DNA of 40,627 nt from positions 1 to 40,627 of the forward strand of contig CALLCO010000017.1 of assembly GCA_937998695.1 (NCBI GenBank). The letters are read 5' to 3'. The position numbers and the translations under genes were made by a program. Source of the stretch: Candidatus Ozemibacteraceae bacterium (GTDB lineage: Bacteria; Muiribacteriota; Ozemobacteria; Ozemobacterales; Ozemobacteraceae). The notes below the pieces were generated by a model. It did no database searches and was not told where the DNA came from. It saw only the letters and a list, made by a program, of their open reading frames with translations. Of the stretch, positions 2,090 to 40,627 are shown in pieces; positions within the stretch are counted from its first letter, which is position 1, and every line of letters begins with the position of its first letter.

Positions 2090-3033
2090 CCACCCGGGGC
2101 GCTGTTGCCCTTGCCCTGCTCCTCTTGCTGGCCATCACCTTCCCGGGTTCGGCGGCCTCTTCTCCCGACTCCTGGACCCTGGAAATCACTCCTGGTGCAG
2201 GCATGGAGATTTTGCGCCGCGACCGGAAGGCGTACCTGCCCATGGAGCGGGGGGATGCAATCCCCGAGGGGGCCATCGTTCGCTTTCGCCCCGACGGGGT
2301 GCCTCCCGAGGCCTCGGCCGCCGTCCTGATAGGCGGGGGGGGCGCGGTTACCCTCGAAATACATCGGGGCGCGGTCTTGCGGCATGGGGCAGGGGAATGG
2401 CGACCCCTCCTGGGACGGTTCCGGGTGAGTGTCGCCTCTTCATCTACCAGCGGCCCCGCCTCTCTGGCCCTACCGGCCGCCCCCCCTTTCGGGGCGAGGT
2501 TTCCCCGGGCACGTTTCGAACTCCAGACCGGGGAAGCCCTCTTCGAGGTGGATGGTCAAGGGAATGGGTCGGTGGCCCTCCGCAAGGGGATCGGCTGGAT
2601 CAAGACCGACACTCGGGCCATCATCCGCCTGGATCCGGGAAAGCAACTCGACCTTCCCCGCTGGGGAACCCCCGGCCGGCCCCGCGATTTCGACGCACGG
2701 TGGACCGAACGCTCTCGCGGGTTCTTGACTTCCGCCGCCGCCCGTCCCGTTCCCCAGGCCACCCCGGACGAGGAGGAGACTGGGCGCGAGAAAGAAGCCA
2801 TCGAGGCTATGCCCGATACGATTCCCGGTTTCCCAGGGTCGAACCAGGAGGCGGGGGATGAACCCGACGACCAGGGACCCATGCCAGCGGAGGGGCCCCC
2901 TGCGGTTCTCGACCTTCCAGAGCCACCGACGGGTCCCAGCGACCCAGCTCAGGAATGGGAGCCCGCTTCGGAGACCCTTCCCCTGGCCGAGGCATCAGAG
3001 GCGGGGGTGGCCTCCTCCAGCCCTGTACCCTAG
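2086..3033 (+). CDS. Exported FecR-like protein
   Basis: A 315-residue exported protein. The GTG start (2086) overlaps the preceding TGA by 4 bp (GTGA). A signal peptide is clear: TTR, then the hydrophobic core AVALALLLLLAITFPG, then cleavage near AASS (about residue 24). Residues 28-210 have the rhythm of a FecR domain: a stretch with GDAIPEGAIVRF, then FELQTGEALFEVDG, then VALRKGIGWIKTDT. FecR proteins usually bind periplasmic ligands or signal to sigma factors, but no sigma or anti-sigma gene is nearby. The last 100 residues are acidic, Pro-rich and probably disordered. It is the third gene of the 877-3033 operon. The FecR assignment is by pattern only. Confidence 0.7.
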   Translation: MTTRGAVALALLLLLAITFPGSAASSPDSWTLEITPGAGMEILRRDRKAYLPMERGDAIPEGAIVRFRPDGVPPEASAAVLIGGGGAVTLEIHRGAVLRHGAGEWRPLLGRFRVSVASSSTSGPASLALPAAPPFGARFPRARFELQTGEALFEVDGQGNGSVALRKGIGWIKTDTRAIIRLDPGKQLDLPRWGTPGRPRDFDARWTERSRGFLTSAAARPVPQATPDEEETGREKEAIEAMPDTIPGFPGSNQEAGDEPDDQGPMPAEGPPAVLDLPEPPTGPSDPAQEWEPASETLPLAEASEAGVASSSPVP

Positions 3034-3196
3034 GAGTTCCTGGCGAACGTCCTGGCTGGTATGCCTGCGGTTGTTCCGGCGATGACGAGCCAGAGAAGTG
3101 GGTTCAAAGTGTTCGGCATGTTCGCCGGGGCGAAACTCTTGGACCACGGGTGCCGATATCAGGAACAAGCCCACGCGGGGCTGTTGTCGAGAAAGG

Positions 3197-3277
3197 ATGG
3201 CCGACATGCTGATGTTTTGGATCCTGACCGTCGCGACCGTGTTCCTGATCATTCACGAGGCCCGGCAGAATGGCTAG
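3197..3277 (+). CDS. Candidate 26-residue membrane peptide
   Basis: A short ORF starting MADMLMFWILTVATVFLI and ending HEARQNG. It consists almost entirely of one transmembrane helix with a charged tail. A GAGAAAGG ribosome-binding-like sequence ends at the base before the ATG, so the effective spacing is short. Its last codons overlap the next short ORF by 8 bp. Two small hydrophobic ORFs overlapping one another just before a hairpin suggest a real unit, but ORFs this small arise by chance, so this is tentative. Confidence 0.35.
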   Translation: MADMLMFWILTVATVFLIIHEARQNG

Positions 3278-3341
3278 ACGCCTGATCGTGTTCGCCCTCG
3301 TCTGCATGTTCTGGACCTGCGCACTGGCGGGCTGCGTCTGA
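3270..3341 (+). CDS. Candidate 23-residue micro-lipoprotein
   Basis: A 23-codon ORF starting MARRLIVFALV, with a basic n-region, a hydrophobic core and a C-terminal lipobox ALAGC followed only by Val and stop. If processed as a lipoprotein, the mature product would be a lipidated Cys-Val dipeptide. It overlaps the upstream micro-ORF by 8 bp and is followed within 4 bp by a strong hairpin (3345-3377). The arrangement recalls tiny entericidin-type lipoproteins, but this one is much shorter. Confidence 0.35.
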   Translation: MARRLIVFALVCMFWTCALAGCV

Positions 3342-3344
3342 AAG

Positions 3345-3377
3345 CCTCCCCTGCCGGGAAACCCGGCGGGGTGGAGG
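3345..3377. terminator. Hairpin between converging genes (probable bidirectional terminator)
   Basis: The sequence around 3353-3367 forms a GC-rich stem (GCCGGG/CCCGGC, loop AAA) extended by further C/G pairs on both sides. It lies between the last plus-strand micro-ORF (ends 3341) and the end of the minus-strand deoC fusion (3413). Only short T-tracts flank it, so intrinsic termination may be weak. Confidence 0.5.
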
Positions 3378-3412
3378 AAAAGTGGGGGCGGGAACCTCGC
3401 TGGACCCGGGAT

Positions 3413-4906
3413 TCAGTATCCCTTGCCGGCGGGGGGTTCGCCTTTGACAATGGCGACCGAAGCGCTTGCCCCGATGCGGGTCGCTCCTGCGGCGATCATC
3501 TTCTGTGCGGTCTGGGTATCGCGGATTCCGCCTGAGGCTTTGACTCCCATCGTCGGACCGACCACCCGGCGCATCAACGCGATATCTTCGGCGGTCGCCC
3601 CACCGGTGCTGAACCCGGTTGAGGTCTTGACGAAATCGGCTCCGGCCAGCTTGGACAATTCGCATGCCTTGATCTTTTCTTCCTCGGTGAGCAGCGAGGT
3701 TTCCAGGATCACCTTGACGCACAGGCCGCCCGCCGCCTCGACGACCCGGGCGATGTCGTTCTTGACCAGTTCATAGTCTTTCGACTTGAGCGCGCCGACG
3801 TTCATCACCATGTCGATCTCGGTGGCGCCGTTGGCGATGCAATCGCGCGTCTCCATGACCTTGGTGAAGGTCGAGGTGGCCCCGAGCGGGAAACCCACCA
3901 CCGTGCAGACCTTGACCGGCGACCCTTGCAGGAGTTTGGCCGCCAGGGCCACGTGGCCTGGGTTGACGCACACGGAGGCGAACTGATACTGGCGGGCCTC
4001 CTCGCACAATTTGGTGATCTCGGCGACGGTGGCATTGGGCTTGAGCAGGGTGTGGTCGATGAACCGGGCCAGCTCGGGGGCGGGCACCGGGGCGTCGAGC
4101 CCTTTTTCGATGCGGTCGGCCCCGGCCGCCACCACCTTCTTGACGGCGGGTTCGCAGGAGGCGGCACAACTGCCATACGTGCGGGAACATTGCTCTTGCA
4201 GGCACGCTCCTTCCTTGCCGGCAGGGGCCACCCCGGTCGTCTTGGGGGAGGTGGGGGTGGCGGTCGTCGTCGTCGGCTGGCAGGAACTGCAGCCGCCCGC
4301 GCCCACGCAGGTGGCGCACTTGTGTTCGGGTTTGACGCTGATGGCCCCTCTCTGGAAGCGCACCCCCATGCCCTCGAGTTCGCGCCGCAGAGCGTCGATC
4401 TTGCGGGCCACGCCCGCCGGGAAATACCGCCCGGCCTCGAGGATCGATTCGTCGGTCACGGTCAGGGGAATCCCTTCGCAGAGGGCGAAGGAGATGACCT
4501 GGGAGGCGTAGGTGTCGGCCAGCAGGTTGGCCGCCTTCGAGAGGGTGTTCATCGACAGGCTGGGAATCGTGATCTCGCGCACGTCACGCAGAGCCAGGTG
4601 AGCGGGGGCCACCTTGGAGGTGATGATCTCCACGCCCGGCAGGCTCCGGGTGATGGGGAAGTTCTCGTGCAGGTAGCTCGACAGGATGAGCTTGCCACCC
4701 GCCGGCAGCAGCGCCCCGATCTGACCGAGGACCTGCTCGACCACCTTGAAGTTGGCGGTGACCAGCACAGCCGGCTTTTGCCCGGCGGCCGACCGGGAGA
4801 CGGGCGGAGAGTCGGGCGGGGGAGTGTACGCCGCGCCGCGATTGGCGGTCTGCGACTTCAGCTTCAGCATCACTTCCCGGGCGATCTGATCGACGATGTT
4901 GTCCAT
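3413..4906 (-). CDS. deoC: BMC-associated fusion: flavoprotein-like domain, Cys-rich linker, deoxyribose-phosphate aldolase
   Basis: A 497-residue cytoplasmic protein, twice the usual ~220-260 residues of DeoC. Residues 1-18 form an amphipathic helix ([18 protein letters not shown]) like the encapsulation peptides of microcompartment cargo, followed by a Pro/Ser linker. Residues 44-187 resemble the Rossmann-type flavoproteins of BMC loci, with [18 protein letters not shown] at 114-131. Residues 195-255 carry eight cysteines: C-x2-C-x5-C-x2-C at 197-209 and C-x4-C-x6-C-x3-C at 235-251. Residues 275-497 are DeoC, which splits 2-deoxyribose-5-phosphate into glyceraldehyde-3-phosphate and acetaldehyde. 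The Schiff-base Lys is 427 (FVKTSTGF), with Asp365 and Lys456 also present. AGGAGG precedes the ATG by 7 nt inside the end of the upstream shell gene. It is the last gene of a three-gene BMC operon. Confidence 0.92.
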
Positions 4907-4908
4907 GG

Positions 4909-5229
4909 TCAGCCTCCTGCCCCGGTCGTGGCCGGAGCCGATTTGTCGAAGATGGTGCGTCCCTCCAGGCAGACGGTGTCGACGATGCCGACGATGGCTG
5001 CGTCGGCCGGGGCTTCCTTGTTTTCGAGCATCTGTTGGACCGAACTGCCTTCTTTCATTAGCAGGACCAGTTCATCCAGGTCGGCCCCCATGAAATCGAT
5101 GGCCAGCACTTCGGGGCCCTTGGCCTTCAGGGCGAGGTCGACCGGCTGTACCAGCAGCAGGGGACGTCCGGAAAAAGCGGGATGTTTGAAGGTCGCCACC
5201 ACCTTCCGGACGACGCGGGCGAGATTCAT
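4909..5229 (-). CDS. BMC shell vertex protein, EutN/CcmL family
   Basis: A 106-residue pentameric shell protein (BMC-P) that would cap the vertices of a microcompartment. The start [19 protein letters not shown] is the typical first strand-loop of EutN/CcmL. It continues with LLLVQPVDL, then a VLAIDFMGA segment, and ends the core with [10 protein letters not shown], the conserved family C-terminal strand. About 18 residues follow, rich in Thr, Ala and Gly. Its ATG overlaps the stop of the upstream paralogue by 4 bp (ATGA). It is only distantly similar to that paralogue, so the two probably occupy distinct vertex or substrate roles. No hexameric BMC-H gene is in the window. Confidence 0.9.
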
Positions 5230-5495
5230 CCCTTGCCCTCGATCCGGTCGATGATGCCGAGGATGGTGGCGTCGGAGGGTGGTCGCTGCTTGACGAACGG
5301 CAGGGAAGCCTCGCCTCCGCCGCACAGGAAGACAGTCTCCCCGTTCCCGGCATTGGTCGCATCACAGGCGATGAAGGGTTGCCCCGTCGCCTTGCCGTCG
5401 GCGTCGATGGTCGTGACGATGAGCAGCTTCAATCCCTGCATCTGGGGGTCTTTCTGGGTACACACCACCCGCCCCAGAACCCGGCCGAGGTACAT
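5226..5495 (-). CDS. BMC shell vertex protein, EutN/CcmL family
   Basis: An 89-residue BMC-P protein, the standard length for the family. The start MYLGRVLGRVVCTQKDP is canonical. It continues with LKLLIVTTIDADGK, a DATNAGNGETVFLCGG loop (the conserved region around the pentamer pore) and the terminal ATILGIIDRIE. The start at 5495 is set by AGGAGG, 5 nt upstream, and by the family N-terminus; a longer in-frame reading upstream has no support. It is the first gene of the shell-shell-deoC operon, with a promoter at 5522-5550. Confidence 0.92.
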   Translation of the reverse strand: MYLGRVLGRVVCTQKDPQMQGLKLLIVTTIDADGKATGQPFIACDATNAGNGETVFLCGGGEASLPFVKQRPPSDATILGIIDRIEGKG

Positions 5496-5521
5496 CCCTT
5501 CCTCCTGGGAGAACTGGCCAA

Positions 5522-5550
5522 ACTCTACCAAATCCACGGGGTGATTGCAA
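5522..5550 (-). promoter_or_regulatory. Promoter for the BMC operon
   Basis: On the minus strand TTGCAA (5545-5550), a 17-nt spacer and TAGAGT (5522-5527). The predicted start is near 5515, giving a 20-nt leader that includes the AGGAGG of the first shell gene. Confidence 0.5.
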
Positions 5551-5803
5551 CGAGATCGCTGCGGGAAGCATGTCGATGTCATGTGCGGCAAGACGGGGAC
5601 AAACACGGACAAGCGCCACCTCAAATTGTCCGCCAACGAACTGCAGAACCGGATTCTTGTTCCCGTCCCTGCGGGATCGGTCGTCGATCCGGAGGGCCGA
5701 GAATAGCTCGGCGAAGTGGTAGATGCATCGTCCGGGCTCCTTTGGGGCGATGCTACCGGCCTGACCCCGCCGCAGAGGTGGCCGTGACCTGCTCCTGGAA
5801 AAG
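5551..5803. other. Intergenic region between the pgi end and the BMC promoter
   Basis: No known gene or RNA family is recognised. It holds a 41-codon plus-strand ORF (5581-5706) that starts MCGKTGTNTDKRHLKL. The ORF has protein-like composition, but no ribosome binding site or homologue that I can name. The pgi transcript enters from the right and the BMC operon starts at its left edge. Confidence 0.4.
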
Positions 5804-7504
5804 TCACCCTTGCCGCCAGGCGGCAAATCTTTCCAAAAGCCCGCGGGTCGAGGAATCATGGTCTGCCAGGTCGACGGGTTGGTTGGCGGCGAGGGCTTCC
5901 TCTTCGGCCAGGATCTTCTTGGCCAGCACCTTCCCGAGTTCCACGCCCCACTGGTCGAAACTGTTGATCCGCCAGATCACGCCCTGCACGAAAATCTTCA
6001 TCTCATACAGGGCGATCAGGCTGCCCAGGCTTTGGGGGGTCAGCTGCTTCAGCAGAATCGTGTTGGTCGGCCGGTTCCCCGGAAAGACCTTGTGGGGAAG
6101 CAGGGCTTCGAGCTCGGCCGCCGGCAGGCCTTCGTTTTCGAGTTCGCGGCGCGCCTCGTCGGGGGTCTTTCCCTTCATCAGAGCCTCGGTCTGGGCGAAC
6201 AGGTTGGCCAGCAGTTTCAGGTGGTGGTCGGCGAACGGGTGGTGAGGGCGCACGCAGCCGATGAAATCGCAGGGGATCAGCTTCGTCCCCTGATGGATGA
6301 GCTGATAGAAGGCGTGCTGGCCGTTGGTGCCGGGCTCGCCCCACAGGATCGGGCCGGTCTGGTACCCGACCGTCTTGCCGTCGCGGTCGACCGACTTGCC
6401 GTTGCTCTCCATGTCGCCCTGCTGGAAATAGGCCGGGAACCGGTGCAGATACTGGTCGTAGGGCAGGATGGCCGTCGACTCCGCGCCGAAGAAGTTGTTG
6501 TACCAGATGCCGAGCAGGGCCAGGATCACCGGAATGTTGCGGCGCAACGGGGTGGTGCGGAAATGCTCGTCCATGCGGTGGTAGCCGTCGAGCAGTTCCT
6601 CGAACCGGTCGAACCCGATGGCCAGGGCGATCGACAGGCCGATCGCCGATGGGCTGGAGTAGCGCCCGCCGACCCAGTCCCAGAAGGGAAACATGTGTTC
6701 GGCGTCGATGCCGAACTTCTCGACCTCGGCCCGGTTCGTCGACAGCGCCGCGAAATGATACCGGACCGCCTTCTCGTCACGTAGGGTCTCCAGCAGCCAG
6801 CGCCGCGCGGTGTGGGCGTTGGCCATCGTCTCTTGTGTGGTAAAGGTCTTCGAGGCCACGAGGAACAGCGTTTCCGCGGGGTCGAGGTCGCGCGTCTTCT
6901 CCCAGAAGTCGGCGCCGTCGACATTGGAGACGAACCGCACCGCCGGGCCCTGGCGTCCGTAAGGCTTGAGGGCTTCGGTGATCATGACCGGCCCGAGGTC
7001 GGAGCCGCCGATGCCGATGTTGACCACCGTCTTGATCGGTTTCCCGGTGAACCCGCGCCAGACCCCGTCGCGAACCCGCTGGCTGAACGCCTTCATGCGG
7101 GCCAGGACGGCGTTGACCTCGGGCATCACATCCCGGCCGTCGACCATGATCGGCCGGTTCGAGCGGTTGCGCAGTGCCACGTGCAACACCGCCCGCTTTT
7201 CGGTCCAGTTGATCTTGTCACCCCGGAACATGGCTTCGATGGCGGCCGGCACCCCGCTCGCTTCGGCGAGATCCAGCAGCAGGTCCAGGGTCCGCCCGGT
7301 GATCCGGTTCTTGGAAAAGTCGACCAGCATCCCGTCGAACTCGAGGCTGAACTTCGCGAATCGCTCGGGGTCCTCGGCGAAGAGATCGCGCAGGTGGCGA
7401 GGGGCGATCTCGCGGTGATGAGCGGCGAGGGCCTTCCATTCGGGAGCCTCGGTGAGCGTGTGGCCCGCGCGGATGAACGTGTCGATCCGGGAAGCTGGGG
7501 TCAT
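5804..7504 (-). CDS. pgi: Glucose-6-phosphate isomerase
   Basis: Interconverts glucose-6-phosphate and fructose-6-phosphate in the cytoplasm. At 566 residues it is the long, classical bacterial/eukaryotic type. Visible landmarks are GIGGSDLGP (164-172), signature 1 around [12 protein letters not shown] (272-283), [11 protein letters not shown] (361-371) with the catalytic Glu366, [15 protein letters not shown] with His397, and signature 2 around [15 protein letters not shown] with Lys525. The ATG at 7504 has AGGAGG 6 nt upstream and its own promoter at 7547-7575. It is a single-gene unit upstream of the BMC operon on the same strand. It complements the gnd-zwf-pgl operon located 20 kb away. 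Confidence 0.98.
5810..5826 (-). terminator. Hairpin at the pgi stop codon
   Basis: TTGCCG and CGGCAA pair around a 5-nt loop, just before the pgi stop on the minus strand. A CTTTTCC stretch follows the stop. This is a weak intrinsic terminator candidate that would separate pgi from the BMC operon. Confidence 0.3.
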
Positions 7505-26482: not shown

Positions 26483-27355
26483 CTACAGGCGGCTGGCGGC
26501 GGGGGGGTCGAGCAGCCAGGTGGCGGGGCGGCGGGCCGTCAAGGCGCCGGCCGGCAGGTCGTCGGCCCTCCCTTCCAGCAGGCGGGCCAGTAGGTCTGCC
26601 TTGCCACTGCCGGTGACCAGGAAGACGAGTTCGGGAATGGCCGCCAGCGCGGCGAACGTCAGCGTGAACCGCAGGGTTTTGACCCGGGGGACCCCATACC
26701 AGGCCACCCATGCACCGCCAGCCAGGCGGCCTTCCCACGGGGTGCCCGGGAAAAGGGACGCCGTATGCCCGTCTTCGCCCAACCCCAGCCAAGCCAGGTC
26801 AGCCGGGGCATCCTGCCCAGGACGGGCGGCCCGCAGACGTGCCTCATATCTTGCGATGACCCGGCCCGGATCGCCTTCTCCAGCCCCTTCGAAGGGAATC
26901 CAGACGGTTTCGCCGCGGCGATGGGCCAACAGGGTGGCGTCGATCATGCCCTGGTTGCTGTCGGGGTGGGCGGGAAGCACGTCCCGCTCGTCGACCTGGA
27001 TCCAGGTGCCGGCGACCACCCCGGGGTCCGCGGCGGCGGCGGTCTCGCCCAGGAGGCGATACACAGGGCGGGGCGTGTTTCCCCCCGATAGGGCGGTCAC
27101 GGGCGGGTGTCCCAGGCGGCCGGCCAGTTCGTGACGGCGGTGGGTCAGCCAGGCGGCGGCCTCGGCGGCGAAAGAATCGCTCGAGTTGGCGACCAGGACG
27201 CGCCCGCGCGGGTATTCCCGCCCCGAAGATCCTCCAAAGGGAAGGGCCGCCGAAGCGCTCGCTCGGGGCGGCGAGAGGGACGGGGAGCCGGGATCGGGCG
27301 GGAGCCGGGGAGCTGAGGGCTGATGGCTCCGCTCGCGACAGTCGAAGCCGCTCAT
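26483..27355 (-). CDS. pgl: 6-Phosphogluconolactonase
   Basis: Hydrolyses 6-phosphogluconolactone to 6-phosphogluconate, the second step of the oxidative pentose phosphate pathway. The protein has 290 residues, longer than the usual ~230-260, because of a Ser/Pro/Arg-rich N-terminal extension of about 45 residues before the domain start (RGRVLVANSSDSF). Family landmarks are VTALSGGNTPRPVY, WIQVDERDVLPAHPDSNQGM and LAWLGLGEDGHTASLFPG. The ATG at 27355 overlaps the zwf stop by 4 bp (ATGA), which favours this start despite the odd extension; initiation at an internal codon cannot be excluded. It is the third gene of gnd-zwf-pgl. Confidence 0.93.
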   Translation of the reverse strand: MSGFDCRERSHQPSAPRLPPDPGSPSLSPPRASASAALPFGGSSGREYPRGRVLVANSSDSFAAEAAAWLTHRRHELAGRLGHPPVTALSGGNTPRPVYRLLGETAAAADPGVVAGTWIQVDERDVLPAHPDSNQGMIDATLLAHRRGETVWIPFEGAGEGDPGRVIARYEARLRAARPGQDAPADLAWLGLGEDGHTASLFPGTPWEGRLAGGAWVAWYGVPRVKTLRFTLTFAALAAIPELVFLVTGSGKADLLARLLEGRADDLPAGALTARRPATWLLDPPAASRL

Positions 27356-28920
27356 CGGCCCGCTCCGGGGCAATTCCGGCCTGCCCCCGCGCGCGAGGCC
27401 AGTGTTCGCCAGGCCCGGCCGTCGGCGGCCAGTAGGGCGTCCGCGGCGGCGGGGCCTTCGGTCCCCGCTTCGTATTCGCCCAGCCGGAGGGGGGCTTCCC
27501 GGGCCCACCCCTCCCGGATGGGATCGACGAACCGCCAGGCGGCCTCGATCTCGTCATGCTGCAGGAACAGGCTGTCGTCGTGGTGGAGGGCATCCAGCAG
27601 GAGGCGCTCGTAGGCATCGGGACGGTAGGCGTCGAACGACGTCTGGTACGAGAAGTCGAGGTCGACCGGGGCCAGCCGGAACTCCATGCCCGGCACCTTC
27701 GACTGCACGGTCAGGTGGATCCCTTCATCGGGCTGCACCCGGATGACGAGCACGTCGGGCGCGATGGCGCCCGGCTTCGTGGCGGCTCCGGGTGGGAAGA
27801 TGTGCCCCGGCACCTCTTTGAAGACGATGGCGATCTCGGTCTGACTGGCCGACAGCCGCTTGCCCGCCCGCAGGTAGAAGGGAATCCCGCTCCAGCGCCA
27901 GGTGTCGATCCAGACCCGCAGGGCGGCGTAGGTCTCGGTGGTCGAGTCGGGGGCCACCCCGGGCTCCTCGAGGTAGCCGGGGATGGTCGGTTCGCCCGCG
28001 TGCTGCCGGCGACCGTAGCGGGCCCGGCAGGTCTGGGTGGGCGTGTCGCTCGCCGCGATCGGGCGCAGTGCGGCCAGCACCTTTTTCTTCTCGATCCGGA
28101 CGCAGGCCGGATGATGGGAGAGCGGGGGCTCCATGGCGGTCAGGCAGAGCACCTGCAGAAGGTGATTCTGCACCACGTCGCGTAGGATGCCGGTGCGGTC
28201 GAAATACGCCGCGCGCGTCCCCACGCCGATGGTCTCGGCGAAACTGATCTGGACATGATCGACGAACTGGCGATTCCAGACCGGCTCAAACAAAATGTTG
28301 GCGAAGCGCAGGGCCAGGATGTTCTGCACCGCCTCCTTCCCCAGGTAGTGGTCGATGCGCAAGATCTGGCTTTCGTCGGCCACTTCTTGCAGTCGGGCAT
28401 GGAGGGCCCGGGCGCTCGCCAGGTCGGTGCCGAACGGCTTTTCGACCAGCAGCCGGGCGGGGCAGGGCGTCTGCCGGTCGCGGGCCAGGAAAGGCGCCAG
28501 GACGGTCAGGAAGGCGGCGATCTGCTCTGGAGGAATCGCCAGGTAGAACAGGCGGGCTGGGGCGGCGCCCTTCCCTTCGATCGCCTGCAGGGCGTCGGCG
28601 AACGGCCCTCCCGCCCCGGGGGCGCCGGGATCGAGCGGCACGTAGTGGAACCGCTCGAGCATGGCCGCGAGGCCGCGGCGGGTCAACGGGTCGGCGGCCG
28701 GGCCCGCCCCTTCCCGCAGGTGGGTGGTCAGTTCCTCGCGGGTCAGGGGCCGTCGCCCGGTCAGGACGACGTGCAAGTCGGAGGGCAGGGCCCCCGCCGC
28801 TCGCAGGCGGGCCAGCGCGGGAATCAGCTTCCGCCGGGCCAGGTCACCGGTGCCGCCGCAGATGACCAGGGAAGAGGTGCAGCGCGGCGGCGCCGGCTTC
28901 AACAGCGTGCTCAGATCCAT
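27352..28920 (-). CDS. zwf: Glucose-6-phosphate 1-dehydrogenase
   Basis: Oxidises glucose-6-phosphate to 6-phosphogluconolactone, normally with NADP+. The protein has 522 residues, near the family norm. The coenzyme loop is GGTGDLARR (22-30), with EKPFG at 160-164 and the substrate/active-site signature RIDHYLGKE at 188-196. FKEVPGHIF and the C-terminal domain follow. The start MDLSTLLKP at 28920 is chosen from the family N-terminus; an in-frame reading continuing upstream through gnd is rejected. Unusually, the 17 nt before the ATG are all C and A (complement of a G-quadruplex motif), with no Shine-Dalgarno sequence. Translation may depend on coupling to gnd. The stop overlaps pgl. Confidence 0.97.
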   Translation of the reverse strand: MDLSTLLKPAPPRCTSSLVICGGTGDLARRKLIPALARLRAAGALPSDLHVVLTGRRPLTREELTTHLREGAGPAADPLTRRGLAAMLERFHYVPLDPGAPGAGGPFADALQAIEGKGAAPARLFYLAIPPEQIAAFLTVLAPFLARDRQTPCPARLLVEKPFGTDLASARALHARLQEVADESQILRIDHYLGKEAVQNILALRFANILFEPVWNRQFVDHVQISFAETIGVGTRAAYFDRTGILRDVVQNHLLQVLCLTAMEPPLSHHPACVRIEKKKVLAALRPIAASDTPTQTCRARYGRRQHAGEPTIPGYLEEPGVAPDSTTETYAALRVWIDTWRWSGIPFYLRAGKRLSASQTEIAIVFKEVPGHIFPPGAATKPGAIAPDVLVIRVQPDEGIHLTVQSKVPGMEFRLAPVDLDFSYQTSFDAYRPDAYERLLLDALHHDDSLFLQHDEIEAAWRFVDPIREGWAREAPLRLGEYEAGTEGPAAADALLAADGRAWRTLASRAGAGRNCPGAGR

Positions 28921-28937
28921 GGGTGGGTGGGGGTGGG
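28921..28937 (+). other. G-quadruplex motif filling the gnd-zwf spacer
   Basis: The plus strand reads GGGTGGGTGGGGGTGGG: four G-tracts with single-T loops, one of the most stable intramolecular quadruplex designs. It occupies exactly the 17 bp between the gnd stop and the zwf ATG. The mRNA strand is C-rich and lacks a ribosome binding site. Confidence 0.8.
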
Positions 28938-29942
28938 TCAGCGGCCGCGGCCCGTCGTGGGCGATCCATTGGGCTCGGCAGCCTCGCCCGCCCTGCCCAC
29001 CCCGCCCGCGCCGCCGACCGGGGGAGCGGCGGTGGCGGCGGCGGTGGTGACGGTGACGGCATGCCCGCCGAACCGGTTCCGCAAGGCGGCCAGGAACCGG
29101 TTGCCGAAAGCATCGTCCTGGCGCGAGGCGAACCGGGCGAACAGGGCGGCGGCAAAGGCCGGGGCGGGAACCCCGGCGGCGATGGCCGTTTCCAAGGCCC
29201 AGCGGCCTTCGCCGGAGTCGTCGACCCGGCCCCGCAGGCCCGCCAGATGCGGGTCGTCGCGGAAGATGCCCTCGGCCAGCTCCAGCAACCAGGAGCGCAC
29301 CACGCTCCCGTGGTTCCAGAGGGTTGAGATGCGGCCGAGATCGAGGCCCAGACCGCTGCGTTCCATTAGTTCGAAGCCTTCGGCATAGGCCTGCATCATG
29401 CCGTATTCCACCGCGTTGTGCACCATCTTGACGAAATGGCCGGCACTGCCCGGACCCACGTGGGCCCACCCTTCCGTTCCGCCGGCCAGGTCGGTGAAAA
29501 CGGGGGCCAGGCGGTCCACGGCCGCCGCGTCCCCGCCGATCATCAGGCAATAGCCCTTTTCGAGGCCCCAGATGCCGCCGCTGGTGCCGACGTCCAGAAA
29601 CTGGCGGCGTCGCCCGGCCATCTCGGCGTGTCGACGCCGGCTGTCGCGCCAGTCGGAGTTGCCGCCGTCGACGATCAGGTCGCCCTCATCGAGGGATTCT
29701 GCCAGGACCCGCAGGGTCTCTTCCGTGGCCGCCCCGGCCGGAACCATGCTCCAGACCGTCCGCGGGGCCGGCAGGGCGGTTCGGAACGCTCCCAGGTCAT
29801 CCACCCACGTGGCCCCGGCGGCTTCGGCCTCGGCGCGGCGGGTCGCCGAACGGGCCGTGCAGAAAACCCGGTGTCCGTGCAGGATCAGCCGCCTGACCAT
29901 GTTCATGCCCATCTTCCCAACTCCGACGAACCCGATGTCCAT
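28938..29942 (-). CDS. gnd: 6-Phosphogluconate dehydrogenase, decarboxylating, short form
   Basis: Converts 6-phosphogluconate to ribulose-5-phosphate, CO2 and NAD(P)H. At 334 residues it is the short (GndA/YqeC-type) form rather than the ~470-residue one. It has an N-terminal GVGKMGMNMV nucleotide loop (7-16), VDGGNSDWRDS (91-101), VGTSGGIWGLEKGYCLMIGG (118-137) and the catalytic Lys172 in GHFVKMVHNAVEYGMMQ. After the second beta strand the sequence is CTARSATRR, whose arginines could bind the NADP 2'-phosphate, whereas many short forms use NAD. The last ~30 residues are low-complexity Ala/Gly/Thr. GGAGG lies 5 nt before the ATG, with a promoter at 29993-30022. It is the first gene of the operon. 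Confidence 0.95.
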   Translation of the reverse strand: MDIGFVGVGKMGMNMVRRLILHGHRVFCTARSATRRAEAEAAGATWVDDLGAFRTALPAPRTVWSMVPAGAATEETLRVLAESLDEGDLIVDGGNSDWRDSRRRHAEMAGRRRQFLDVGTSGGIWGLEKGYCLMIGGDAAAVDRLAPVFTDLAGGTEGWAHVGPGSAGHFVKMVHNAVEYGMMQAYAEGFELMERSGLGLDLGRISTLWNHGSVVRSWLLELAEGIFRDDPHLAGLRGRVDDSGEGRWALETAIAAGVPAPAFAAALFARFASRQDDAFGNRFLAALRNRFGGHAVTVTTAAATAAPPVGGAGGVGRAGEAAEPNGSPTTGRGR

Positions 29943-32480: not shown

Positions 32481-33020
32481 TCACGCCTTGCCGGCCTTGC
32501 CGCGGCGCGCGGAGCCGGCCGCCTGGTCGCGGGCCGCGACCGCCAGCCGGTCACACCGCTCATTCTCGGGATGGCCGGCGTGCCCCTTGATCCAGCGCCA
32601 GGTGATCTGGTGCCGCTCTGTCAATTGCAGCAACTCTTCCCAGAGGTCGCGATTCTTGACCGGTTGCCTTCCCGAGCTTCGCCAGCCGTTCTGCTGCCAC
32701 TTTTCGAGCCAGCCGTCGTTGAACGCCTTGGCCAGATACTGGCTATCGGTTTGGATCACCACGCGGCAGGGTTCCTTCAGACACCGGACCGCTTCCAGGC
32801 AGGCGGTGAGCTCCATCCGGTTGTTGGTGGTGTCGGCTTCCCCCCCGCTGATCTCCTTTTCCTTGTCCTGATACCGCAGGATTGCCCCCCACCCCCCGGG
32901 GCCGGGGTTGCCCAGACAGGCGCCGTCGCAAAAGATCTCGACAAACTTGCGGGGCGGGGCCCCGCTGGCCGGCGCCCTTGTCCGTGAGGATCCGCCGGGA
33001 TCAGTCAGTCGACCAGACAT
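32481..33020 (-). CDS. rnhA: Ribonuclease HI
   Basis: Degrades the RNA strand of RNA-DNA hybrids. A 179-residue protein. The four acidic residues are present: Asp32 ([17 protein letters not shown]), Glu70 ([13 protein letters not shown]), Asp92 ([10 protein letters not shown]) and Asp157 (NERCDRLA). The catalytic His147 is in [10 protein letters not shown]. The N-terminus has about 25 extra Ser/Pro/Arg residues, and the C-terminus ends in a basic tail. The ATG at 33020 lies 20 bp inside the end of the giant lipoprotein gene, with GGGGGTGG just upstream, suggesting coupled translation. Confidence 0.95.
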
Positions 33021-36000
33021 CGTTGGCCACCCCCCATTCGGTTTCGCCGCCGAGCAGGACCATCCGGCTGCGGTGGACGGTCGCGGCACTGTCAGCCCTC
33101 GCCGCGAACCGCTGGGCCCCCGCCGGAGCGTTGTCCAGGACCCGGTTCCAGGTCTGGCCGTCCGAGGTGGCCCAGACGTCGTTGAAGGAAAGGTCCCATC
33201 CCGTTTCGTCGAGCCCACTCCCGCCGATCAGCCAGAGGCGGTTCTGATAGGACAGCAGGGTTGCCCCCGCCCGGGCGGGGAACCCGGCCTGCTCGGCCGC
33301 CCTGATCCAGGTCTGGCCGGTGGTGGTATACCAGGCGTCCGCGAGCGGTCCTTCCGCGCCTGCAGCGTTGATGCCATGTCCTCCAAAGACCCACAGCCGG
33401 CCTCCGAAGACGGCGGCCGTGCTTCGCATGCGCGGGAAGAAACTTGCGGCGGCGGCCACCTCCGTCCAGGTCTGGCCGTCCGTCGAGGTCCAGGCGTCGT
33501 CGAGCAGCAGGGGCATGCCCTCGGAATCGTATGACATGCCGCCCAACAGCCACATCCGGTTGTCGAACACCACTGCGCTGTGGTACGCCCTCGCCCAGAA
33601 ATCGGCCGACGCCGTGGCCCGGGTCCAGTCGACCCCGTTGGTTGTCCACCAGACATCGTCGAGGGTGTCGTAGCCCGTGCCGGTGTCCGTTTCCCCCCCG
33701 ATGACCCAGAGCTTGTTGGCAAAAACCAGACAGGCGTGGCCGGCCCGTGGACTGAACCGGGTGACCGTGGTGGGATTGTCGGCCAGAACCCGCGTCCAGG
33801 TCACCCCATCCGGCGATCGCCAGACGTCATTGCGGAACTGCCCGTCGTTGCCACCGATCACCCACAGGGAGTCGAGGAAGGAGGCCACGGCGTGGTTCTT
33901 GCGCGGGGAAAACTGATCGCCCTGGATATCGTCCGCCAGGTCCAGCCGCCAGTTCGCCCCTTCCATCCCGCGGGTGGTGAACTCCCAGGTGACCGGCGCC
34001 GACAGGGCATTTCCATGCTGATCGCGGGATCCGGTCGTCACCGTCACGCGGTAGCGCAGCGACATGGCCAGGGGTGCCGTCGGGCGGAACTCCACGGTGC
34101 GCTCGTCCGGCCAGGTGAATGTGCCGGCGACGGCCACTCCTGCCGGTGTTTCCAGCCGGAAGGCCCCTGCGGTGGCAGGGCGGTCCATGGCTTTGGTGAA
34201 AGCCATGCGGACCGGCGTGTCGGTGGGGAGACCCTCGCTACCTGGAACCGGATACTCGCTGCCGTTCACGACCGCCGGCCGGGCTTCGGTGCGGAAGCCC
34301 GTGATGAAGACTTCCCCCAGGGCGATGCCGCCCGCATCGCGGGCGGTGGGGCCGATCGCGGCCTCGTAGAAGGTGGCGAATGCCAGGCGGTCGGGGATGG
34401 TCACCGACAGGGTGCGCCGATCGGCCGACCAGGCGAACTGCGGCGTTCCCGCCGCCGGAACCAGCGAGAACGCCGCCTGGGTCGTGGGAGCGTCCATGGC
34501 TCGGTCGAAGGTGAAGCGCATGACGGTTGTCACCGGCACCTCGAGCGTGCCGGGGACCGGCGCGCATGCGGTGACGATGGGGGTGGTCACTGCCTGCGTG
34601 ACGAACGAGAACCCGGTGGCCCCCGTCAAGGGCGCGCCGAACACGTCACGCGCGCTGGCGGCAACGGTGACCTGGTGGGTCTGGCCGCCGGCCAGAGCAC
34701 CGCCAAAAGCCACCGTCAGACGGGTATCGTCGTTGCTCCAGGTCAGGGTCTTTCCACCCGTGGGTGCGGGATTGACCAGCACATCGACGGTTGCCCGGGC
34801 CATGGGGGTGGAAAAATATAGGACCAGGGGGGTGGTCACGCTCACCCCGGTCTGGCCATCGGTCGGCGTAGAGGCGGTTAGACGGCACGGGGGTGGCGGC
34901 ACCGTGATGAAGGTGCTCGAAAATCTTTCGGACAACGGGTTTCCGCGGGTGTCGCGGGCGGTCGTGCCGATCGCCATGGTCAGGGTGGTCGAAGCTGGCA
35001 TCCCTCCGGTTGGCCGGAAGGTCAGCCGGGTGGTCGACCAGGCGAATGTGCCCGGCAGGGCGCCCGTCCCCCCAACCAGCGTGAAGGCCTGCTCCACCGA
35101 GGGACGATCCATCTCCTTGGAGAAGGTCACCACCACCGGGCTGTCGGTGGCCACCTCGCCCGCTCCGGCGGATGGCTGCACGGCGGTTACCGCCGGCGCC
35201 ACTTCGGTCACGAACGTCCCCTGGAAGGGCAGGGCCAGGGCCAACCCGGCCTGGCTGCGGGCGGTGACGGCCACCTGGGCCGTGTAGACCTGCCCAAACG
35301 ACAGCGGCTGGCTCCAGGTGAGGGTGGCGATCGTGCGGTCGGCCGACCAGGACCAGGTCGGGGCTGCTGCGGGGGTCGGCGTCAGCGAGAAAGCGGCTTG
35401 GACGCTGGCGGTGGCCATCGCGGTGTCGAACCGCAGTTCCAAACTGGTCCGGATCGGTATGTCGGTAGTGCCAGCGGCTGGCAGGAAGCCCACCAGTCGC
35501 GGGCCGGCCGGGGGGGCGGCGGTGGTGAACCCGCTGGTGAAGGCTGTTCCCAGGGCGGTCTCGGAGGTGTCACGACTGGTGGCGGCGACCGTCACCGCAT
35601 AGGCGGTGTTGCCGTTCCAGCCTTCCGGCACGGTCAGGGTCAAGGTCTTCCCGTCGGCTGACCACTGCCGGACCACTGATCCGATAGGGATGGGGGAAAT
35701 GACGATGCCGACGGTCGGGGAGGCCATGGCTTTGCTGAAGACGATCACGAGCGGAGAGTCGAGGGCGACGTCGGCAGAGCCCGGGGCGGGTGAGATGCTG
35801 GTCACGGCGGGCGGCTCCGGGGGGAGAGTGGTGAACGAGGTGGTGAAGGCCGTGCCCAGCGCGTGTCCGGCCAGATCGGCGGCGGTGGCGGCGATGCCGA
35901 TCCCGATGGTTTTGCCCAGCGGCCATCCGCCGGCCGGCAGCAGCCGGAGCATCGGGCCGTCCCAGATCGAACCCACCGCGAGGGGAGCTCCGTCGGCGGT

Positions 36001-39000
36001 CACCGTCAGAGCGGCATTGACCGAACCCTGGTCCATGGCCCGTGAGAAGGGAAGCACCGCCCCGGTCGTCGGGCCCACCCCCGTGGCGCCGCCGGCGGGC
36101 ACCACCTGGGTCACCACCACGGCCGGGCGGGCGATCGTGGTGAACGCCTGGGTGAGGCTTCCCGCCAACGGGATGTCCGTCGCACTGCGGGCGCCCGTGC
36201 CGACCGTCAGCGTGTAGGCGGTGGCGTAGGCGAGCGGTTGGGCGAACGTGATCGTCACCGCGCGGTCGTTCGCCCAGGTGAAGGTGGGCGTGCCGACCGG
36301 GGCGGGGGCGAGGCCGATGGCCGCCTGCACGGAGGCACGGTCCATGTTCTGGTCGAAGGTCAGCTGGAGGGCGCTTCGGGGGTCGATTCCGGTCTGTCCT
36401 GGCCCCGGAACCGTGGCAATGACGCGGGGGTTGGGTCGGGCAAGGGTAGAGAATGTGAAACTACCTGGCGGAATCACCAGGTTCCCGCTCTGGGCCCGGG
36501 CGTCGGCCGCAACGGTCCATTCCCAGGCGGTGTCGGGCGCCAGCCCGAGGGGGAATGTCACCGTCAATCGGCGGGCGCCGTCGGTCCACGCTGTCTGTGG
36601 TTCCTGGCCAGGATCGGGGCGCAGCAGCGTTCGCACCGTGGCGGTCTCCATCGGTTCGGCAAAGGCGACGACGAGCGGGGTGGCCGGGTCGACGTTGGCC
36701 GCACCGCTGGCCGGGGTGATGGCCGCCGCAGTGACCGACCGCTCGACGCTTGTGGTGAACCGTATCGTGACCGCCGTCGCCAGCGGAATGCCGTTCTGGT
36801 CACGCGCCCCGCGCCCGATCAACAGGGTGTAGGCCTGGTGCGGACGCAGCGGGGCAGCCGGGGTGAGCAGAAGCCGGGTGGGGCCGTCCCACCGCCGGGT
36901 GGCGGCCACCGGCTGACCTTCGAGCAACAGCTCGCAGGCCTGGTCGGTGGTGTCATGATCCATCGGTTTGCTGAAGGGCACCCGGATGACGACCCCACTG
37001 GCCACGCCGCTGGCCCCGTCAGCCGGGAAAACCCCCGACAGAACCACGGTGGGCGCTGTGTCAGTGGTAAAAGTACGGTGAATCTCTTGGCCCAGAGAAA
37101 CCCCCAGGGCATCGCAGGCGGTGGCGGCCACGGTGAAGCGATAGGCGGTCCCCGCTTGCAGTGGGCCGGTACTGCCTGCCACGGCCGCTGTCCCCGCCTC
37201 GTTCCAGGACCACACCATCCCGCCCGCCGGGGCGGGTGCCAGGGTGGCGGCCGCGGCGACGCTGGCTCGGTCCATGGCCCGGTCGAAGGTCATTTCCAGG
37301 CGCAGGGTCAGGGTAGGCACCGTCTCGCCGTCGGACGGCAGGAAGGTGAGAAGCCGTGGGGTGTCGAGACTGCCGGTCCGGAAAGACAGACTGCGGGTTC
37401 CAGTCAGGAGGAGGCCCAGACGGTCGGCGGCCGTCCCGTCCAGTGTGGCCAGGTAGGTGGTTTCGGGGGCTAGAGGGGCGGCAAACGAGACGGTCAGCGT
37501 TTGGCCGTCCGCGCTCCAGGACAGGATCGGGGCCCCCCCGGCCGGGGTGACGCCGAGGGTCACCGTCTTCGGATCCATGGGTTTCGAAAAAACGAACTTC
37601 AGGGAAGGCTGCAGCGGCAGCCCCGTGGTGTCCGGGGTGGGGGTGGTGTCCACCAGGGTCGGCGGCGTGGTGTCCGCTGTCGTGAAGCGGCTCTCGAAGG
37701 CCACCGGCAACCGGTTCCCCGCCGCGTCCGCCAGACCGGTGCCCACCCGCAGCGTGTGCAGGGTGTTTCCCACCAGTCCGCCTGACCAATGGAATCGCAC
37801 GATTTGGTCGTTAACCCAGGTAAAGACCGGCCTTCCCGCCGGGGCCGGGCTTACCGACAATGCCGCTTCCAAGGTCGCACGGTCGACCGGCTCGTCAAAG
37901 GCCAATTCGAACGCCCCGAAGGGGTTTACCCCGGTGGCGCCCTCCACCGGCACCACCCGCACGAGAGCGGGAGGCTCGGTATCGGCGGTGGTGAAGACGA
38001 TCCGGATCGGCTGGACCAGGGGGACGCCCCCGGCACTGCGGGCAGCCTGGGTCAGTTGGAGCTCGTAGTGGGTGGCGTTCCCCCAGAGAGCGGCCGGGCC
38101 GATCGTCAAGATCCGGTTTTCGTCCTGCCAGGCCATGGCATAGGGGCTTGCTCCGGTCGGGAACAGGCTCAGGGCTGCCGCGACCGAGTTGGGGTCCATG
38201 GAGTGCGTGAACCGCAGACTCACCGGAGTGGTGCGGGAGACCGCCGTCTGCCCGTCACGCGGTGTGGCTGCCGCCAGGGCGGGGGCGGGGCCCGCCGCGG
38301 TGGTGAACGCGAGGGTGAAGGGCTGCGCCAGCGCATTGCCGTGCAGGTCCACCGGCCCGGTGGCCAGATGGAAAGTGATCCGGCTCGAGGCGGGCCAGGC
38401 CGTGCCGGGATTGATCCAAACCTGGTCGCTGGACTCGTTCCACAGGAACCACCGGGCGGTGGTCGGGGGTGAGCTGCTGCACGCCCGCTCCACCGAGTCG
38501 CGGTTCATCGGCTCGCTGAAGCGCAGGAAGACCGGGGAGTTGGTCGGCACCCCGGTCGCGCCCTGACTCGGCGTGAACGAAACCAGCTGCGGGGCGGTCA
38601 GGTCGGGCAGGGGATACTCGAAGCGGGTCTGGCCGGCCAGGGGCACGCCGTCGGTGTCGCGCGCCCGCGTCGTGAAACTGGCCACCAGCGGTGCCGTTGG
38701 GGTCCAGGCGGGGGCCCAGCCGAGCACCAGCACGGTGCCGCCCGCCTCCCAGGTGAGGGTCGGCACGGGCGGAGCCGCCGCGGCGGGGCCCAAGGACAGG
38801 GCCGCCCCCACGCTGGTCGGGTCCATGGCCCGGTCGAACCGGAACCGCAGGGCGGACAGGGGCAGGCGGAGGGGAACCCCCGCTTCCGGCCGCGTTTCTA
38901 CGATGGTCGGGCCCGTCCGTTCCTGCGTGGTGAACCGTAGGGTCTGCACCTTCGCCAGCGGATTCCCTTCCAGGTCCTGACAGGCGGTTCCCACCTCGAT

Positions 39001-40545
39001 CTCGTGGGTCAGGCTGGCCAGCCACAGGCCCGTGGGCAGCACCCCCACCGTGGTCCGGTCGGTCGACCAGAACCACGACAGGGAGCCCACCTCGGGGCTG
39101 GTCACGGCGACCCCGCGCTCGACGCTGGGCGGCCACATCGGTTCGCTGAACTGCAGGGTGATCCAGGTGTTGCGGGGAAGGTTCCGTGACCCCGCCGGGG
39201 GCTGGGTCGCCTCCAGGAAGGGGGGAACCACGTCCGCCGTCGCTCCCGTCGAGAACGCCCACCGGAAGGGATTCTCCAGGGTGACCCCCCGGATGTCCCG
39301 GGCGGTGGCGGCGAGGGTCATCTGGAACTGCGTGTGCAGCGGCAGCGGATCGAGGAAACGGAACGTCGCGGTTCGCCCGTCCCGCCACTGCCAGGTGCGC
39401 GGGCCCGGATCGGGGAAGATCGACAGGGCGCGCTCGACCGACCCCGGGTCCATCACCCGGTCGAACCTGATCTCCAGGACCGGCCGGCGGCCGATGTCGC
39501 GGGCCATGTCGGCGGGCACCGTGCTCAACACGCGGGGGCGCACGACCTGGCGGGCGGCGATCTGGGGTTGCAGGACCACCCGGCCTTCCCGCACCAGTGG
39601 CGCTTCCCGGGCCCGCCGGGCGACGACTCGCCACGCCAACGTGTGGGGGACCTGGGAGGAGGTCTTCCCGGTCAAGATCAAACGGAAACTGTAAGAGGCC
39701 GCATTCGGGCCAAACACTGACCGCACGAAGGAACCCTCACCCAAAGGGACACGGAATCCGGTGGGGGAGTCCGGTGGCAGCGCTGATACGGTCCCCATTC
39801 CATCGGGAGCGGCGCCCTCGAGGGGAAGGGCCGGCTCCGGGAACAGCGTCAACTCGGTCTGCCATTCGGGAACCGCCGCACTGGTACCAGGTGCCCCTTC
39901 CCATCCGGTCTCGATCTGCAGATCTTCGGCGAACCGGCCGTTGTCGTCGACGAGGGGGGCGGTCGGGGTGATCAGGAACACCGGGGCGGTCCGCAGACCG
40001 GGCCCGGCCCCTGGTTTGCGCAACAGCACCACCCAGTCCGACAGGGTCCAGGTGTCGACTCCGGCTACTTGGGCAATGAAATCCTGGTCTGGGGAATGGA
40101 AGCGCCAGGTCCCGTCGCTGCCTCGCGCCCCCATGAAGATGTCAGGGGCCGTGTCGGGAGACAGCCGGTGCGGCGGCGTGATGGGCAGTTCGAGCCGGGC
40201 CGGTTGCAGGAGACGGCCGTCCTGGCCGCGCAGGCGCAGGGAATACACTGGGGTCAGGGGAATGGTGCCCGACGGAATGATGAGCGCGGCCGATGCGGGG
40301 TTCATCAGGGTGAGCATCAGGATCCGGTCGGTGAGGACCGCCCCGGGCGACACCTGCAACCGGAACCGGTCGAACCGGTAATCGACTCCCTCGTCGGCCC
40401 GCACCATCAACGCTCCGGCCAATCCGGGCGGTCCTGGTTCGTCGTGCAGCTTCCGGAAGGGGCTGACGATCGAACAACCCAGGGTCAGCAGGGCCAGGAG
40501 CAGCCCGCCCGCCACCCACCACCGCCGTTGTCCCTCAGGGCTCAT
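33001..40545 (-). CDS. Giant surface lipoprotein: 18 Big_5-type repeats plus a kelch-like propeller
   Basis: A 2514-residue exported protein. The ATG at 40545 is set by AAGGAG about 8 nt upstream and gives a lipoprotein-like signal, [17 protein letters not shown]. Residues 40-330 are beta-rich and may include a ZU5-like piece ([20 protein letters not shown]). Residues about 335-2190 hold 18 consecutive ~103-residue repeats of the bacterial Ig-like Big_5 type. Each begins with a P-x2-G-x3-V pattern, then FxxxMDxxSV, and ends F(T/S)T. Residues 2195-2514 hold six kelch-like repeats, each with LWxIGG and NDVWxSxDGxTWxRV. The protein would project from the outer membrane and present the propeller at its tip, suiting adhesion or polysaccharide binding. 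It is co-transcribed with rnhA. Confidence 0.93.
33966..39545 (-). repeat. Array of 18 Big_5-type coding repeats
   Basis: About 5.6 kb of ~310-bp coding units inside the giant lipoprotein gene. The units share motifs such as MDRASV, a conserved W (TWSWSADR-like) and the terminal FTT, but have diverged in DNA, so they are old duplications. A few neighbours (for example those containing [16 protein letters not shown] and [15 protein letters not shown]) are closer to each other. Confidence 0.85.
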
Positions 40546-40627
40546 TTGGCTCTCCTTGACATGTGGTACCTCCAGCTGTTTCTGGGATACACCAGATCTC
40601 CTCATCACGAAGAGGGCTTTTCGCCTC

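Follow-up and report, generated by a model that had tools for sequence, protein, structure and literature searches.

Why two vertex shell proteins of a bacterial microcompartment (BMC) should be encoded next to a deoxyribose-phosphate aldolase (DeoC) that carries a flavoprotein-like domain, on a contig (C17) where a profile search detected two PF03319 genes and no PF00936 match, is the question raised by positions 3413 to 5495 of contig CALLCO010000017.1 from a Candidatus Ozemibacteraceae bacterium. The window analyzed is the whole stretch from position 1 to 40,627 of this contig; the genome consists of 4.53 Mb in 324 contigs and is 91.8% complete. The locus is very probably a satellite of a split BMC of the sugar-phosphate-utilizing (SPU) type, with the DeoC fusion as cargo, in a Candidatus Riflebacteria (Ozemobacter-like) genome. 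This reading draws on gene content, split layout, catalytic residues, a common helix and invariant cysteines, all taken from the sequence, and on a predicted fold for the fused domain. The sugar of DNA is the probable substrate of the organelle.

The satellite consists of three genes on the minus strand: BMC-P1 (5226..5495), an EutN/CcmL vertex protein of 89 amino acids (PF03319, E 1.8e-26); BMC-P2 (4909..5229), an EutN/CcmL vertex protein of 106 amino acids (PF03319, E 2.7e-24 for the frame run from 5235); and the fusion (3413..4906), a protein of 497 amino acids in which an encapsulation-type helix, a flavoprotein-like domain, a cysteine segment and DeoC are combined. Both BMC-P proteins score far over the PF03319 cut-off. 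BMC-P2 probably starts at the ATG at 5229 rather than at the earlier GTG of the open reading frame list. BMC-P1 overlaps BMC-P2 in the sequence ATGA, the end of BMC-P2 is 2 bp from the ATG of DeoC, and AGGAGG is located upstream of that ATG; the spacing of the three genes is operon-like. The original prediction of two EutN/CcmL genes coupled by overlap and close spacing to a 497-residue DeoC fusion was upheld by these features and by the TIGR00126 match described below.

The hexameric shell genes, which the original prediction placed elsewhere in the genome, were found there. PF00936 matches are on contig C90 (BMC-H and one tandem BMC-T), apart from one weak orphan on C113. The order on C90 is a triosephosphate isomerase (TIM)-like gene, PduL (PF06130, E 1.7e-78), BMC-H, a third BMC-P, an aldehyde dehydrogenase (AldDH; PF00171, E 5.3e-39) at the only place in the genome with Aldedh matches, PduS, and most of a BMC-T at the contig end. 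Contig C92 opens with the C-terminal end of a BMC-T, followed by RpiB and then the phosphopentomutase DeoB; an RpiB match is also present on C100. In Candidatus Ozemobacter sibiricus, the same main-locus genes form one unbroken stretch with RpiB directly after BMC-T, and the satellite (46-48 kb) and main locus (167-175 kb) are about 120 kb apart on one 464-kb contig. The order x368-PduL-BMC-H-BMC-P-AldDH-PduS-BMC-T-RpiB, where x368 is the TIM-like gene, is kept in all 15 of the other family genomes fetched, and DeoB is inside the fetched stretch in 11 of the 15. In families f2, f3, f4 and f8, DeoC shares a locus with BMC-H, BMC-P and RpiB (the genomes with this arrangement are G001, G002, G003, G004, G037 and G038), and the satellite therefore appears to be a portion split off from a single module. 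By its gene content, with PF03319 genes as its only shell genes and a fuller BMC locus elsewhere, the C17 locus is a BMC satellite locus, and it would supply two of the three vertex proteins together with the signature enzyme DeoC.

Weighing against this picture of a split locus are the following. The adjacency of C90 and C92 is deduced from gene order. Three genomes (G007, G012 and G023, 75-84% complete) possess the fusion with no match to the main-locus hexamer. The single promoter proposed in the original prediction was not borne out: a consensus scan of positions 3000-6000 gave no promoter-like site on the coding strand, its only site being on the plus strand.

Two side observations concern the main locus and its relatives. 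The first main-locus gene (L012:2541-3650) encodes a TIM-like protein with an unexplained N-terminal part and catalytic motifs that appear degenerate by eye; its candidacy as a flavoprotein was dropped, the Pfam match of x368 being to triosephosphate isomerase (E 1.9e-7, residues 223-279). The weak single BMC-domain protein on C113 (G000:C113:6510-6665, minus strand; L013:6510-6665) is outside both loci and occurs in 10 of the 39 genomes of the phylum set; in the five members read, the pore position is occupied by Cys-Pro (GVCPSH, GVCPTH or GVCPSP), like that of an iron-sulfur (Fe-S) shell protein, and a sixth frame (L217 of G003) encodes another kind of BMC-domain protein.

An SPU locus is defined by DeoC (pfam01791 aldolase) and RpiB (pfam02502 isomerase) (PMC8217296). 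Judged by gene content, the predicted organelle is of this type, as had originally been proposed: DeoC and RpiB are among the BMC genes, AldDH is in the locus, and so is PduL, which most SPU loci have. Triosephosphate isomerase and PduS accompany SPU loci of Atribacteria, and an aldolase-isomerase fusion is found in those of Marinimicrobia (Axen 2014, PMC4207490). Three features set the present system apart: DeoC and two BMC-P genes are located away from the main locus, DeoB follows RpiB, and the DeoC chain also contains a flavoprotein-like domain and a cysteine segment, whereas the named SPU fusion of Marinimicrobia is that of aldolase and isomerase. As the satellite contains an enzyme, it would be termed satellite-like in the stricter wording of Axen (PMC4207490), whereas the definition of Sutter (PMC8217296) allows enzymes.

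The same gene content, two BMC-P and an aldolase, makes up the type I satellites of Haliangium ochraceum-like (HO) loci, in which there are likewise three BMC-P in all and some aldolases carry extensions resembling encapsulation peptides (Sutter 2021, PMC8217296). An HO-type system, with its type I satellite split from the main locus, is nevertheless an improbable explanation of the C17 locus: the main locus includes RpiB, one of the enzymes that define SPU, and the only tandem BMC-T found is of the standard PduT-like kind, whereas HO loci share BMC-Tdp. No BMC-Tdp was found in the PF00936 search of this genome, which is 91.8% complete and in which permuted forms might score low.

The fusion itself has the attributes of cargo. 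Residues 1-20 (4847..4906, minus strand) form a putative encapsulation peptide (helix 2-21 in the predicted model), followed by residues 21-40 with pLDDT below 50, a predicted flexible linker; a terminal helix on a flexible linker is what encapsulation-peptide cargo is expected to have, and the fusion is putative cargo of this kind. AldDH and PduL, encoded in the main locus, have N-termini that align with this helix in register. At the DNA level, the pattern I-[VA]-x-E-V-[LM] has six matches in 4.5 Mb, two of them at recognized N-termini (this DeoC and the main-locus AldDH), two inside proteins and two in frames without identification; the PduL helix is equivalent, but its leucine codon falls outside the DNA pattern. 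Residues 278-487 (3446..4075, minus strand) are a class I deoxyribose-phosphate aldolase domain (TIGR00126, E 4e-88; score 294.4 bits, cut-off 117.3), and the best match of the full-length predicted model among the DeoC crystal structures of the PDB is 6d33, at 69-71% identity. D365, K427 and K456, which we take to be the Schiff-base lysine and the partner aspartate and lysine of class I enzymes, are conserved without exception in the 20 aligned sequences. By these residues, the DeoC domain is predicted to be intact and of class I.

DeoC is widespread as a housekeeping enzyme, and the genome has its single DeoC match at this gene, which would suit a housekeeping DeoC with chance BMC-P neighbors and an N-terminal extension unrelated to any organelle. 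That explanation is highly improbable and already contradicted. In 18 of the 19 family loci fetched, DeoC follows the two BMC-P genes (the 19th, L053, is cut by a contig end), the six genomes named above have DeoC in one locus with BMC-H, BMC-P and RpiB, the helix is common to DeoC, AldDH and PduL, and the two shell-less genomes that possess DeoC have a short one.

The satellite and main locus together would encode a likely deoxyribose route (DeoB, DeoC, AldDH, PduL), completed in an uncultured phylum. DeoB would convert deoxyribose-1-phosphate to deoxyribose-5-phosphate, which DeoC, going by pathway knowledge, would cleave in the lumen to glyceraldehyde-3-phosphate and acetaldehyde. AldDH would then convert acetaldehyde, CoA and NAD+ to acetyl-CoA and NADH, and PduL would make acetyl-phosphate. 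The NADH would need to be reoxidized. No match to an iron-type alcohol dehydrogenase was found in the genome (the control gave 13 of 14), and because none was found to recycle NAD+, export of electrons from the organelle is proposed; the genome is 91.8% complete and other alcohol dehydrogenase families were not searched, which limits this negative result.

The domain between helix and aldolase is relevant to this proposal. Residues 44-186 (4349..4777, minus strand) are predicted by AlphaFold to have an alpha/beta fold, with pLDDT of 69-91 in blocks of ten residues (mean 67.3 for the whole 265-residue model), and all 45 PDB structure matches at E <= 0.001 are UbiX, EpiD, AtHal3, DmrB and similar flavoproteins, so that the predicted model has the HFCD fold. 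At the sequence level, the PF02441 score of the window protein is 12.9 bits (E 0.083), below the cut-off of 22.7, which is passed by the fused relatives L059 (36.9 bits) and L057 (28.1 bits); L154, L155, L156 and L158 are below the cut-off and L157 shows no match. A profile of the N-terminal region matched 12 PDB sequences at E of 1 or below, of which three are unrelated and nine are flavoprotein-family chains (E 0.013-0.34), presumably including dipicolinate synthase B. The original claim that residues 40-190 are flavoprotein-like therefore stands for the predicted UbiX/EpiD-type fold, whereas the PF02441 search of the window protein did not confirm it. The original prediction was to be given up if the genome had no BMC-H gene or if these residues were not flavoprotein-like; neither held true. 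The domain resembles HFCD proteins (UbiX, EpiD, AtHal3, DmrB) in its predicted fold and in an S-x-N-T-x-x-K stretch, and differs from them in the missing loop glycine, the joined aldolase and the encapsulation-type helix; no decarboxylase or prenyltransferase activity is claimed. Following it is a low-confidence linker, residues 197-251 (4154..4318, minus strand), with two groups of four cysteines (C197, C200, C206, C209 and C235, C240, C247, C251), all eight of which are invariant in 17 of 17 family sequences (alignment A4).

The distribution of the fusion was determined in 39 genomes of Candidatus Riflebacteria (the phylum set) and by a scan of 381 genomes, 342 of them outside the phylum, with the N-terminal profile. 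Within the phylum, the fusion is present in 26 of 39 genomes: 18 of family f1, and G001, G029, G031, G032, G033, G035, G037 and G038. The profile found 24 of these, while G037 and G038 (frames of 499-501 amino acids) were found only by a weaker tblastn match of 23% identity. Shell genes are accompanied by DeoC without the flavoprotein-like domain in five genomes (G002, G003, G004, G014 and G015); G014 and G015 match the profile through the helix only and were counted here. In four others (G028, G030, G034 and G036) there are shell genes and no DeoC match. The four without shell genes (G018-G021) are all four members of genus g10, two of which keep a short DeoC without the flavoprotein-like domain. 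In a DeoC tree of 28 fused and 7 unfused rows, the fewest changes required are four; the tree is poorly resolved and speaks neither for nor against one origin followed by losses. Outside the phylum, 20 of 342 genomes match the profile; of the five of these that were examined, two have fusions and three have standalone genes in BMC settings. Both fusions (G170 and G307, family f140) are next to a BMC-P gene, with no PduS or BMC-T in the fetched stretches. The standalone flavoproteins (G198, G050 and G146) are over the PF02441 cut-off and near BMC-H genes, and have a helix-like N-terminus by eye.

Other DeoC sequences were noted in the same genomes. L171, from a shell-less genome (78% complete), is a short DeoC with an encapsulation-like helix, possibly a relic. 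A further DeoC match, partial and under the cut-off, lies in frames of 267-784 amino acids at G002:C470, G003:C8, G004:C104, G037:C5 and G038:C649, and adjoins the BMC DeoC in G004, G037 and G038.

What the fused parts do is the least certain step of the reading. The PduS-type protein of the main locus has all four published domains (PF01512, PF10531, PF13534 and PF13375), and the BMC-T pore motif is CPGK, CSGK or CAGK, in agreement with the C-P/S/A-G-K motif by which PduT reportedly binds a 4Fe-4S cluster (PMC6325248). With these domains, this motif and adjacent genes, the two proteins are predicted to be a PduS/PduT pair; the published pair differs in its setting, this one being in an aldolase metabolosome, where the main-locus genes read on C90 and in O. 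sibiricus include neither a B12 enzyme nor a glycyl-radical one. A redox role for the flavoprotein-like domain and cysteine segment is therefore tentatively favored, and the electron transfer originally suggested for the fused domain is possible. The two parts would act inside the lumen as a redox module, which together with PduS (in a studied homologue, a protein with FMN and two 4Fe-4S clusters) and the PduT-like pore cysteine would send electrons of NADH out of the organelle. A more specific version, in which the aldolase has a relay of its own, a flavin domain and two Fe-S clusters that pass electrons of AldDH-derived NADH via PduS to the PduT-like pore cluster, is unlikely; if true, the organelle would export electrons and make no ethanol, and a microcompartment cargo enzyme would have a built-in redox wire.

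Several observations count against a redox role. The fold matches are moderate (TM on target 0.44-0.60, for a predicted model). Of the 17 rows of family f1, 16 (all but L056) lack the loop glycine, as do both f140 rows, and for this reason FMN binding is uncertain and may be lost; the glycine is kept in nine of nine rows outside these families, namely the standalone proteins and the fused proteins of f2, f5, f6 and f7. Most of the cysteine segment has pLDDT below 50 and is predicted to be disordered, and the window protein has no Pfam Fe-S (Fer4) match. The two parts vary independently: two genomes of genus g9 lack the flavoprotein-like domain, f3 has only the cysteines, f7 and f140 have the flavoprotein-like domain without the cysteine cluster, and f4 has neither. 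The PduS/PduT-like pair does not covary with the cysteine segment of DeoC, because all eight families of the phylum possess the pair, including those with DeoC without the cysteines.

The flavoprotein-like domain may instead be a structural scaffold that cross-links cargo and nucleates the organelle core, with cysteines that bind zinc or a structural cluster or form disulfides; organelle and pathway would be unchanged. HFCD proteins form trimers and dodecamers, and dodecameric UbiX and the DmrB cage are among the structure matches. The missing loop glycine of f1 and f140, the redox-neutral chemistry established for DeoC, and the related BMC genomes that do without the domain (G014 and G015) agree with a scaffold, but redox chemistry better accounts for the invariance of the eight cysteines and for a PduS/PduT-like pair in the organelle, and the loop glycine is retained by the three standalone flavoproteins encoded near BMC-H. 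The scaffold and redox roles are about equally likely, each being a possibility that leans toward the doubtful.

A satellite of two BMC-P and an aldolase is already known, whereas the fusion of flavoprotein and DeoC is apparently new, no report of it having been found in the open-access papers searched; supplementary tables may list it. The pairing of these domains, called unfamiliar in the original prediction, is not confined to this genome, being present in 26 of 39 phylum genomes and two others. A counterpart is the standalone flavoprotein of GRM3 loci, a possible electron shuttle (PMC4207490), which shares a BMC setting with the standalone flavoproteins of L160, L161 and L162; in the fusion the domain is joined covalently to DeoC. 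Encapsulation of an electron mediator (flavodoxin) with PduS in glycyl-radical microcompartments was left open (PMC6325248). A related question arises here with a flavoprotein-like domain covalently joined to encapsulation-type cargo, which is amenable to purification and a reduction assay. The fused, flavoprotein-less and cysteine-less forms within the phylum and the standalone forms outside it constitute a natural variant set for NADH disposal in aldolase metabolosomes.

The satellite does not extend to its upstream neighbor, a phosphoglucose isomerase (5804..7504, minus strand; PF00342, E 1.9e-231) that is not claimed for the organelle; among 19 family loci, 12 have it in this upstream position, and contig ends truncate some of the remainder. 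In a plasmid collection, 258 records match the query, none with one place covering 80% of it, and the ten matches listed cover the DeoC part only. Elsewhere in the window, genes at approximately 26483-29942 resemble, by eye, those of 6-phosphogluconolactonase, glucose-6-phosphate dehydrogenase and 6-phosphogluconate dehydrogenase, and positions 33001-40608 contain a frame of 2535 amino acids with many Ig-like repeats and, at its C-terminal end, kelch-like repeats, also recognized by eye.

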